The notes under the pieces are model-generated. The model made no database searches. It saw nothing but the letters and a program-made list of their open reading frames with translations, and was not told where the DNA came from. Shown here in pieces: positions 25,288-55,160 of a stretch of 64,000 nt of DNA; positions within the stretch are counted from its first letter, which is position 1; every line of letters starts with the position of its first letter. Where the stretch lies: NCBI GenBank assembly GCA_020062665.1, contig JAGUVW010000016.1, positions 1 to 64,000 on the forward strand, given 5' to 3'. The position numbers and the translations under genes are program-made. This DNA is from Pseudomonadales bacterium. GTDB taxonomy: Bacteria; Pseudomonadota; Gammaproteobacteria; Pseudomonadales; Ketobacteraceae.

Positions 25288-25492
25288 GATCCACAGCTGG
25301 AAGTAGGGTGCTGCCATTCCGGACACGCTTCAAGCCCATCCATGGGACGCTCGTCCGCGGCCCCTCCGGGTCCGGCCATTCACGAGTACGCTCATGGCGT
25401 TCGCAGCGACGAAAGTATACTTTCGCTATTTCGCTGCTCATCCATGGCCGCAAACGGTCCGGAACTGCGGCACCCCACTCAAACTGAAGATC
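25288..25492 (+). repeat. Y-fold interspersed repeat, copy 2 (large, diverged)
   Basis: Fills most of the 25204-25530 gap. Outer imperfect inverted arms at 25288-25324 and 25457-25492 share GGGTGC-GC-TTCCGGAC. Inside, the family core starts with GGACACGC (25321) and the hairpin CCCA-TCCA-TGGG (25335-25346); the second hairpin is degenerate (GGCCCC-TCC-GGGTCC). Unlike other copies, about 80 extra bases follow, including the perfect palindrome CGAAAGTATACTTTCG near 25411-25426 inside GCAGCGA...TCGCTGC arms. No coding capacity. Confidence 0.7.
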
Positions 25493-33919: not shown

Positions 33920-34033
33920 GGTTACGCAGCAGGGGAATTCGAATCTGGACACGCCGTAAACCCATCCCTGGGGGCTGCTCCGCGGCATCCCTGCCGCAGA
34001 GCGTCCATATTCGAATTCCCCTGCTGCGCAACC
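33920..34033 (+). repeat. Y-fold interspersed repeat, copy 3 (complete)
   Basis: Sits between hom and thrC. Arms 33920-33944 and 34009-34033 are inverted over 25 bases with one mismatch; the inner 20 bp are perfect (outer end CGCAGCAGGGG). The core 33945-34008 begins GGACACGCC and ends GCGTCC. It can form CCCA-TCCC-TGGG (33961-33972) and GCGGCA-TCCC-TGCCGC (33982-33997), the latter extended by CTC/GAG. Loops match the other copies while stems and arms differ. Confidence 0.9.
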
Positions 34034-38626: not shown

Positions 38627-38695
38627 CCTGTCGGGTATCCGGCTGCAGCTGGCAAGGGTCGATGGTCTTGACGCTGAAGCCGGATACCCGGCAGG
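38627..38695. repeat. long imperfect hairpin between convergent genes
   Basis: CCTG-t-CGGGTATCCGGCT-g-CAGC (from 38627) pairs with GCTG-a-AGCCGGATACCCG-g-CAGG: 21 paired bases with two mismatches around a loop of about 22 bases. No T-run. It resembles the long arms of the Y-fold repeats, but the TCCC-loop core is missing, so I do not count it as a copy. A bidirectional terminator or a decayed element are both possible. Confidence 0.7.
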
Positions 38696-53417: not shown

Positions 53418-53535
53418 CGGGGGCATTCAAGGGTGTTGAATGCGGGTGAATTATTGGAAGGGAGACTGCGGGGGACAAGGTTTTCGCAGGTTAAACGTGC
53501 GGGCTTGCGAAGGGGTTTGCTCCGAATCGTCGAAA

Positions 53536-53577
53536 TTTGCAAATTTTGCGAATTTGCAGTATTTACAAATTTCGAAT
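53536..53577. promoter_or_regulatory. array of five TTTGCAAA-like octamers
   Basis: TTTGCAAA (53536), TTTGCGAA (53545), TTTGCAGT (53553), TTTACAAA (53562) and TTTCGAAT (53570) follow each other every 8-9 bases. The stretch is strikingly AT-rich against its surroundings. It lies about 150 bases upstream of the acyl-CoA dehydrogenase start and 153 bases before the regulator start, with repeat copy 4 between the array and the regulator gene. Confidence 0.55.
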
Positions 53578-53592
53578 GTGGCGCAGAACTGA

Positions 53593-53706
53593 GGCCGCCG
53601 GTGCGGGAGGGGCTTTCGGGAACGTCAGCGGCCAGGGATGGCCGCTGTCGAGCCTACAGGGATGTACTTGTGGCGTGTCCCGAAAGCCCCTCCCGCACCG
53701 GCGGCC
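53593..53706 (-). repeat. Y-fold interspersed repeat, copy 4 (complete)
   Basis: Perfect 29-bp inverted arms at 53593-53621 and 53678-53706 (inner end GGCTTTCGGGA). The core, read on the minus strand, starts GGACACGCC (53680) and forms TACA-TCCC-TGTA (53655-53666) and CAGCGGCCA-TCCC-TGGCCGCTG (53626-53647, 9-bp stem). It lies between the octamer array and the regulator ATG and would form a very stable hairpin in the regulator leader if transcribed. Confidence 0.9.
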
Positions 53707-53729: not shown

Positions 53730-55160
53730 ATGACCAACCGCAAACGCAAACTCTTCCTCGGCGCCAAGATCCGCCGGTTCCGCGAGCAGCAGCACCTCAG
53801 TCAGGCCGAGCTGGCCTATCGCCTGGGCCTGTCCGCCAGCTACCTGAACCAGATCGAAAACGACCAGCGCCCCCTCACCGTGCAGGTGCTGCTGAAGATG
53901 GGCAGCCTGTTCGACATCGACCTCACCCACTTCTCCGAGGAAGAGGACGACCGCCTGATGGCAGAACTGAAGGACTGCATGGAAGATCCCCTCTTCAAGC
54001 ATGAAAAGGTAGCGCTGCAGGATCTGAAGGAAATCGTCTCCCGCTCGCCAGCATTCGCCCGCCACTTTCTCACCCTGTACCAGTCCTATCACCAGGCCAA
54101 CCAGAATTTCGCCGGCCTGGCTCAGGACGTGACCGGCGACGAGGCCGTGCGCGCCATCGTCGGTCCGCAGTTTCCCTACGAGGAAGTGCGGGATTACTTC
54201 TACTACCAGAACAACTATTTCGACGGACTCGATCGCGCTGCAGAAAGGCTGGCGGAACAGGAAAAACTGGCGTCGGGCGAAGGGGAAGCGAAGCTGATCG
54301 ACTACCTGCAACGCCAGCATAGTATTACGGTGGTAATGGACGCCGAAGGTGATCGCCTGCGCCAGTTCGAACCGCAGCCGCGCCGGCTCACGCTGTCGAA
54401 ACTGCTGTCACTCAAGCAGCGCGTGTTCCAGCTCGCTCATCAGATCTGCCTGCTGGAACAGCAGCCGCTGATGGATGAGATGATCCGTCAGGCCCGTTTT
54501 TCCAGCGCGGAAACCGAAGCGGTGTGTCGGGTGGGTCTGGCGAATTATTTCGCCGGCGCGCTGTTGATGCCCTACAGCGCGTTCCTGAAAAAAGCCCAGC
54601 AGGAACGCTACGACATCGAACGCCTGCAAATCATTTTCAACGTGAGTTTCGAGCAGATCTGCCATCGCCTATCCACTCTGCAGCGGCCCGGCGAAAAAGG
54701 CATTCCGTTCTATTTCGTGCGGGTGGATGCGGCGGGGAATATTTCCAAGCGCCAGAGCGCCAGCAGTTTTCATTTCGCCCGCGTCGGTGGCGCCTGTCCG
54801 CTCTGGAACGTGCACGACGCCTTCGCCCAGCCGGGAAAAATTCTGCGCCAGGTGGCCCAGATGCCCGACGGCAAAACCTACTTCTGCATCGCCCGCACCG
54901 TGAGCCGCACCGAAGGCGGTTTCCTGATGCCGCAGAAGACCTTCGCCGTCGGGCTGGGCTGCGAAATCCAGCACGCGCCGCAACTGATTTATTCCGTGGG
55001 AATTGATTTGAATGACAAGGCAGCAGCAGTGCCAATCGGCGTGAGCTGCCGGGTATGCGAGCGGGACAACTGCCCACAGCGGGCATTTCCGCCCATCGGC
55101 AAGAAGATTCACATCAACGAGAATGAGCGGGAGTTTTTGCCTTACCGGTTCGAAGGCTGA
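53730..55160 (+). CDS. XRE-family regulator of short-chain acyl metabolism (RamB/ScfR-like)
   Basis: A 476-residue regulator. N-terminal helix-turn-helix (about 8-65; GAKIRRFREQQHLSQAELAYRLGLSASYLNQIENDQRP), then an ImmA/IrrE-like domain (about 190-300; VFQLAHQICLLEQQ, VGLANYFAGALLMPYSAFLKKA) that lacks the zinc-protease HExxH, and a DUF2083-type C-terminal domain with CRVCERDNCPQRAFPP. RamB, ScfR and PrpC/MccR-type relatives control acetate, propionate and short acyl-CoA use. The ATG at 53730 fits the family; the longer frame from 53373 would translate the repeat. It is divergent from the acyl-CoA dehydrogenase gene and ends 3 bases from the convergent kinase gene. Confidence 0.88.
   Translation: MTNRKRKLFLGAKIRRFREQQHLSQAELAYRLGLSASYLNQIENDQRPLTVQVLLKMGSLFDIDLTHFSEEEDDRLMAELKDCMEDPLFKHEKVALQDLKEIVSRSPAFARHFLTLYQSYHQANQNFAGLAQDVTGDEAVRAIVGPQFPYEEVRDYFYYQNNYFDGLDRAAERLAEQEKLASGEGEAKLIDYLQRQHSITVVMDAEGDRLRQFEPQPRRLTLSKLLSLKQRVFQLAHQICLLEQQPLMDEMIRQARFSSAETEAVCRVGLANYFAGALLMPYSAFLKKAQQERYDIERLQIIFNVSFEQICHRLSTLQRPGEKGIPFYFVRVDAAGNISKRQSASSFHFARVGGACPLWNVHDAFAQPGKILRQVAQMPDGKTYFCIARTVSRTEGGFLMPQKTFAVGLGCEIQHAPQLIYSVGIDLNDKAAAVPIGVSCRVCERDNCPQRAFPPIGKKIHINENEREFLPYRFEG

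Follow-up and report, generated by a model that had tools for sequence, protein, structure and literature searches.

What kind of element lies at positions 33,920 to 34,033 of the 64,000-nucleotide stretch of DNA analysed here (the window), and is it a piece of mobile DNA or a structured RNA? A first-pass annotation had reported four elements with a common core and inverted arms in the window, and all four are present at or near the positions that it gave (Table 1). The complete copy at the locus in question, copy A, is located between two genes, both on the minus strand, which by eye we take to be hom and thrC. It folds into a long stem with two hairpins (z = -9.7 against 200 shuffles), and an inverted-repeat measurement gives arms of 31 nt that are 94% complementary. 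Copy B has the same architecture (z = -11.7 against 200 shuffles; arms of 32 nt, 97% complementary) and lies just upstream of the ATG at 53730 of a gene that, judged by eye, presumably encodes an XRE-type regulator. In copy D, approximately 76 nt (25363-25438) interrupt the second hairpin and the arms are short (~15 nt) and imperfect, while the missing part of copy C very probably opens contig C33. Two further repeats were observed in the window. A dyad of TTTGCAAA/TTTACAAA-type repeats, perhaps an operator, is found at 53530-53575, ahead of copy B and of the gene that follows it; much of this dyad is conserved at the orthologous site of the related genome G001. An inverted repeat that lacks the core, with 23-nt arms that are 91% complementary and 23 nt apart, is found at 38627-38695.

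Table 1. Copies of the element in the window and sites occupied in more than one genome. R1 is the covariance model described in the text; strands refer to the window.
Feature	Position	Strand	Remarks
Copy A, complete	33920..34033	folding strand minus (core of the first-pass annotation on plus)	R1 match 33947-34007:+, E 1.5e-20
Copy A, left private arm	33920..33946		27 positions, 25 Watson-Crick
Copy A, right private arm	34007..34033		
Copy A, GGA of second ANGGAN loop	33965..33967	minus	CATCCCTG at 33963-33970; order read on minus
Copy A, GGA of first ANGGAN loop	33988..33990	minus	CATCCCTG at 33986-33993; order read on minus
Copy B, complete, second core subtype	53593..53706	folding strand plus	R1 match 53618-53680:-, E 1.8e-9
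Copy B, GGA of one ANGGAN loop	53636..53638	plus	CATCCCTG at 53633-53640:-
Copy B, GGA of other ANGGAN loop	53660..53662	plus	CATCCCTG at 53657-53664:-
Copy C, truncated by start of contig C1	1..85	minus	core 1-56, right arm 57-85
Copy D, second-subtype core, irregular	25306..25475	minus	R1 covers only 25321-25374, E 0.039
Sites occupied in at least two genomes			L036/L110, L035/L112, L042/L117, L078/L182, L049/L185, L034/L114, window copy B, L122/L053/L068/L054, L108/L161, L177/L067, L028/L060 (the last resting on one flank and a weak match)
Shared sites with differing orientation			L034/L114, copy B, L054 against L122, L177/L067

The first-pass reading depended on further copies in the genome. 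A search with the core pattern (~60 nt) found 19 copies in the window's genome (G000), in which the reversed control pattern had no match. The covariance model R1, built from 18 cores, gave at least 40 matches at E ≤ 1e-3 in the same genome, a lower bound since 143 of 5127 first-look candidates were scored. Two pairs of matches (C33-C1 and C70-C81) look like the halves of elements at contig ends, so that about 38 elements are probably present. Contigs C1, C33, C70 and C81 seem to break within the hairpins of elements, and assemblies probably undercount the copies.

The element is not confined to this genome. Of 38 genomes, counting that of the window, 17 have R1 matches. G001 has at least 62, and among the 38 are several genera from the same family or order in which R1 matched nothing. 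Across the Gammaproteobacteria, at least 118 stretches of named records contain a 25-base pattern of the core, including records of Stenotrophomonas, Xanthomonas, Rheinheimera, Marinobacter, Microbulbifer, Methylotuvimicrobium, Erwinia and Moritella, and seven named genomes carry 28-116 copies each. All these match numbers are lower bounds because the genome searches score part of the first-look candidates. Carriage by plasmids or phages was rejected, as a 65-base query found no match in either at E ≤ 1e-5. Two local arrangements were noted: at loci L057 and L094 of G024 the elements form head-to-tail tandem arrays with units of ~205-233 bp, one element each and arms in common, and in Stenotrophomonas maltophilia SJTL3 (L352, 18825-19339) the element lies within a stretch of ~500 bp of which two other S. 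maltophilia genomes contain numerous complete or partial repeats. In the literature covered, which includes subscription journals only poorly, no account of the element as a dispersed repeat was found.

The arms and loops were analyzed in 169 copies from this and related genomes, which remained when 103 and 98 model matches were filtered to remove weak reverse-strand echoes, duplicates and copies truncated by contig ends. Arms of at least 15 bp are present in 35 of the 36 copies analyzed from the window's genome (median 28.5) and in 161 of the 169. In the 74 of 82 G000 and G001 copies with gap-free arms of at least 20, arm positions 5-20 are 96.5% Watson-Crick paired, or 98.6% if G.U on the complementary strand is counted, against 34.5% (maximum 38.3% in 300) when the right arms are shuffled, and all four Watson-Crick pair types are used at every one of these positions. 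Because these copies were preselected for their arms, the shuffle and the pair types carry more weight than the pairing percentage. Paired change can also be followed between G000 and G001 at individual sites. At L042/L117, which has the same flanking genes in both genomes, 12 of 23 arm pairs have changed on both sides and none is broken. The corresponding numbers are 12 of 24 with none broken at both L078/L182 and L035/L112, and 10 of 23 with one broken at L049/L185. The outer flanks align at L042/L117 and L078/L182, which are therefore the same insertions. These compensated changes lend strong support to the proposal that the structure is preserved and the sequence of the stems is not.

The same annotation had described the arms as private to each copy. 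This holds in the window's genome, where the arms differ between copies, but not elsewhere: dispersed copies with common arms occur in Stenotrophomonas, Arenimonas and Methylotuvimicrobium. Identity of arms between copies, named beforehand as evidence against privacy, was thus found in other genera; an identical 28-nt arm is present at L322 and L327 of one genome, while other Stenotrophomonas copies have arms that are similar only. Recent copying of arms within the window's genome was rejected, since its 32 copies contain 2 look-alike arm pairs (at least 13 of 20 positions) against 1.6 expected from column shuffles, a null whose mean is fixed by the shuffle so that only its tail is informative. 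The observed and expected numbers are 2 and 1.05 in G001, 0 and 0.05 in G019, and 1 and 0.05 in G017, in which one recently copied arm pair is possible. A weak arm consensus exists in the window's genome at positions 2-4, 7 and 13-14. Private arms are a trait of the lineage and not a design, and they are probably private by age, having been copied with the element and then having drifted in pairs.

The residual mismatches in the arms differ between the two strands. They were counted in 149 copies, leaving out twelve G024 copies and those with arms shorter than 15 nt. On the strand from which the first-pass annotation had read the core, A.C mismatches outnumber G.T (95 vs 26, p = 2e-10) and Y.Y outnumber R.R (75 vs 16, p = 3e-10); without arm positions 1-4 the ratios are 85:17 and 35:15, respectively. 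On the complement, A.C becomes G.U and Y.Y becomes purine-purine. Such pairs are tolerated by folded RNA or single-stranded DNA. As strand-symmetric mutation predicts equal numbers, the bias marks the folding strand, and the annotation had used the wrong one: it is the complement that folds. In 123 of the 149 copies, folding is also energetically more favourable for the complement; the difference is weak in G017 (12 of 21 copies), which counts against the RNA reading. In 114 named copies, which are partly related to each other and of which 23 have fewer than 20 paired arm positions (eight copies near contig ends were skipped), wobble mismatches again prevail (93 vs 16), as do purine-purine mismatches (64 vs 9). 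Arm positions 1-4 account for 36 of the 58 C.T mismatches. Read from the complement, these correspond to G.A pairs next to the junction; the available part of PMC4333381 mentions tandem G.A pairs in the TwoAYGGAY RNA.

The wobble bias is alike in both directions of the neighbouring genes, being 27:5 where both run with the core and 23:5 where both run against it, which argues against gene transcription as its cause; selection at the mRNA level that follows gene direction was rejected on these grounds. Between convergent genes the bias is similar (18:5). The 13 copies between divergent genes show none (6:6), which again counts against the RNA reading.

The conserved TCCC/TCCA loops of the first-pass annotation are conserved indeed, but they were read from the wrong strand and are the complement of ANGGAN loops. 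On the folding strand each of the two hairpins carries an A-N-G-G-A-N hexaloop, with GGA at the expected place of the first and second loop in 164 and 166 of the 169 copies, respectively. Where GGA is in place, 163 of 164 first loops and 152 of 166 second loops retain the first A. The base opposite this A varies (U129 C23 A11 G1 in the first loop and U120 C40 A6 in the second), and the A is therefore retained as sequence and not as part of a pair. The spacing between the GGA triplets could be measured in 162 of the 169 copies, with search windows that permitted about 15-27 nt; it is 20 nt in 121 of the 162 and 19-22 nt in all of them.

This is the motif of CsrA/RsmA binding sites, for which the portion of PMC7652899 consulted gives ANGGA within a hairpin loop, a distance of 10-63 nt between two sites with an optimum GGA spacing of more than 18 nt, the ANGGAN rule for RsmE and the SELEX consensus RUACARGGAUGU, with which the loops agree. 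The element has both ANGGA loops and a spacing within the 10-63 nt range in 162 copies, a geometry predicted to allow one CsrA/RsmA dimer to bridge both sites. Counting against such docking, the same partial source indicates that very stable stems may disfavour CsrA. A CsrA gene is present in all 17 element-bearing genomes and also in 20 of the 21 genomes without elements (37 of 38 overall), and its presence therefore cannot discriminate between them. G029 has nine CsrA-family matches alongside 34 elements. In CsrB, CsrC and RsmX/Y/Z, GGA likewise lies in hairpin loops and sites are paired for the CsrA dimer (PMC4333381 and PMC7652899, as far as these texts were accessible). According to the accessible text of PMC4333381 they gather numerous sites in one highly expressed RNA, whereas here many dispersed loci have two predicted sites each on a long rod.

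The element had been thought to belong to no described family. This is incorrect, as sibling copies of those in the window are TwoAYGGAY RNA (Rfam RF01731). In the window's genome RF01731 reports at least 10 of the 40 R1 matches at E ≤ 10 and at least four of them above its curated cut-off of 43 bits, lower bounds because 54 of 193 candidates were scored. All 10 coincide with R1 matches on the opposite strand. The best, a sibling copy, scores 48.3 bits over the full length of the model including the outer stem, and C74:19711, which has the core subtype of copy A and does not belong to the sequences from which R1 was built, passes with 47.6 bits. RF01731 exceeds its cut-off in at least five of the 38 genomes, and in a permissive Rfam scan it matches a G019 copy on the complementary strand with 32 bits, below the cut-off, over a region that covers the outer stem as well. 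Copies A and B themselves have no RF01731 match at E ≤ 10 and are linked to the family through their siblings, by R1. Against the identity, the cut-off was not reached at any of the 18 named loci, out of 118, that were scanned.

The architecture agrees with this assignment. Like TwoAYGGAY, the element has a long, variable but base-paired external stem, a junction and two hairpins with terminal ANGGAN/AYGGAY loops on one strand, and the external stem of the TwoAYGGAY model is described as not well conserved in the part of PMC4333381 available, where CsrA binding had already been proposed for this RNA with Clostridia in mind. TwoAYGGAY comes from a bioinformatic screen of 2010, in which its taxa were listed as "Human gut, gamma-Proteobacteria, Clostridiales" (PMC2864571, seen as an excerpt). 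In contrast to the Rfam type of the family, Cis-reg, the element has no orientation preference to genes, and its copies number tens per genome. Membership in TwoAYGGAY via the sibling copies is nevertheless well supported by these sequence comparisons.

A second Rfam family, Ysr224 (RF02770), is listed as an expressed Yersinia sRNA. All seven of its matches in the window's genome at E ≤ 0.01 fall on R1 matches, on the strand of R1 and thus opposite that of RF01731, and 8 of 8 do likewise on the core in the permissive Rfam scan. No match passes the Ysr224 cut-off in the 38 genomes (best 40 of 70 bits). Ysr224 appears to be an antisense description of the same kind of element; that it matches the non-folding strand counts against an RNA read from the complement. 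The many miRNA-family matches below cut-off were dismissed as generic scores of long hairpins.

The gene context was determined for 162 copies, with genes taken as long open reading frames called naively and seven of the 169 copies dropped for short flanks. The numbers are 44 with both neighbouring genes in the ++ arrangement, 39 in --, 27 convergent, 14 divergent, 33 overlapping an open reading frame and 5 unknown. The lack of a preference between ++ and -- counts against a transcribed RNA, as does the result for sigma-70 promoters: a promoter of this type on the folding strand was rejected for lack of bias (p = 0.53, 158 copies). Near the base of the arms, 5' on the folding strand, the motif TGGCAC is enriched (21 vs 6 of 149 copies), most clearly in G017; for a sigma-54 promoter, considered as well, visual inspection revealed no -12 part.

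The window sites of copies A, B and D were examined in G001. Two of them are empty there, with flanks too diverged for the junctions to be read. Since both arms are absent at these two sites, insertion into a pre-existing palindrome was rejected. At the G001 site orthologous to copy B the element is present in the opposite orientation. A single presence/absence site was compared in Stenotrophomonas, and it resembles the product of a deletion between two copies. By their match coordinates, 11 sites carry an element in at least two genomes, with the orientation in agreement at 7 and differing in at least one comparison at 4. These differences could result from flipping via the arms or from independent insertion. 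L028/L148 was rejected as a further shared site because the G017 element lies one gap away and the L028 site in G017 leaves no space for one.

Could the element then be a REP-like mobile hairpin of single-stranded DNA, formed by the complementary strand and mobilised in trans by a transposase of the Y1/HUH or another type, with any role as RNA incidental? Its dispersal at 28-116 copies in each of seven named genomes, the occurrence in several genera of dispersed copies with common arms, the inverted pairs at distances of about 160-330 bp, the lack of orientation bias to genes and its absence from two orthologous G001 sites would all fit. Nor can the strand bias alone separate RNA from single-stranded DNA, in which G.T and G.A are also tolerated. 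Like REPs and REPINs with their RAYT, the element forms many dispersed intergenic palindromes, often as inverted pairs; unlike them, it combines two conserved loops with a variable rod. It is also larger than REPs, which measure 20-40 bp, and the GTAG tag of REPs was not seen by eye at its ends (REP data from the portion of PMC3733652 available). Mobilisation by RAYT/Y1, which the first-pass annotation had suggested, finds no support in the 38 genomes: Y1_Tnp, the transposase type searched, does not track the copies, being present in only 7 of the 17 bearers (absent from 10) and in 14 of the 21 others. Against mobility in general stand the lack of a clean insertion at the sites compared, the Stenotrophomonas site apparently being a deletion, the occupation of some sites across genera and, at L108/L161, across families, the plasmids and phages without a match to the 65-base query at E ≤ 1e-5, and an ANGGAN rule that is what an RNA-binding regulator would select. 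We consider a mobile hairpin unlikely, and the structured RNA that had been its alternative in the first-pass annotation fits better.

Pairing of the arms would need no selection if template switching during replication copied one arm onto the other. Near-perfect pairing with free drift of sequence and the changes on both sides of the arm pairs at orthologous sites (12 of 23 pairs in one case, none broken) would be expected from this process, but symmetric correction predicts no bias among the leftover mismatches, which are biased to G.U and R.R and alike so in either direction of both neighbouring genes; we give this account hardly any credence. Nearly as improbable is a bidirectional terminator or a stabiliser of mRNA 3' ends in ordinary transcripts. 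Strong stems in mostly intergenic positions, and divergent gaps that are less used than convergent ones (14 vs 27), are in its favour, but visual inspection of the flanks shows no consistent U-tract following the arms on either strand, the conservation of the loop motif extends to its sequence, beyond what structure asks for, and the folding strand is independent of gene direction.

Taken together, the observed family identity via siblings, folding strand, loop motif, spacing, paired arm evolution, copy number and distribution lead us to regard the element as probably a high-copy, repeat-like TwoAYGGAY RNA, encoded on the complementary strand, that docks a CsrA/RsmA dimer. The element would be transcribed, and its RNA would fold into a rod of 20-35 bp that ends in a three-way junction and two small hairpins, each presenting an A-N-G-G-A-N hexaloop with the GGA triplets ~20 nt apart. 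The two loops on their rod are the likely docking site of one dimer, and many copies together may titrate CsrA or recruit it locally. More speculative, and in our view rather doubtful, is a distributed CsrA sponge of dozens of dispersed, individually maintained docking rods per genome, present throughout the Gammaproteobacteria, whose arms may let the core flip; flipping in place would explain why orientation is independent of the genes.

For the family, these results mean that an orphan of Rfam becomes testable, with a folding strand indicated by comparative evidence, copy numbers of tens to over a hundred per genome and loops that predict CsrA docking. The element also documents compensatory evolution in nature with unusual clarity. 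Current annotation mostly misses the sites, with at least four above the RF01731 cut-off against at least 40 R1 matches in the window's genome. If the docking reading is true, a large pool of dispersed binding sites would belong to the CsrA network in many gammaproteobacteria.
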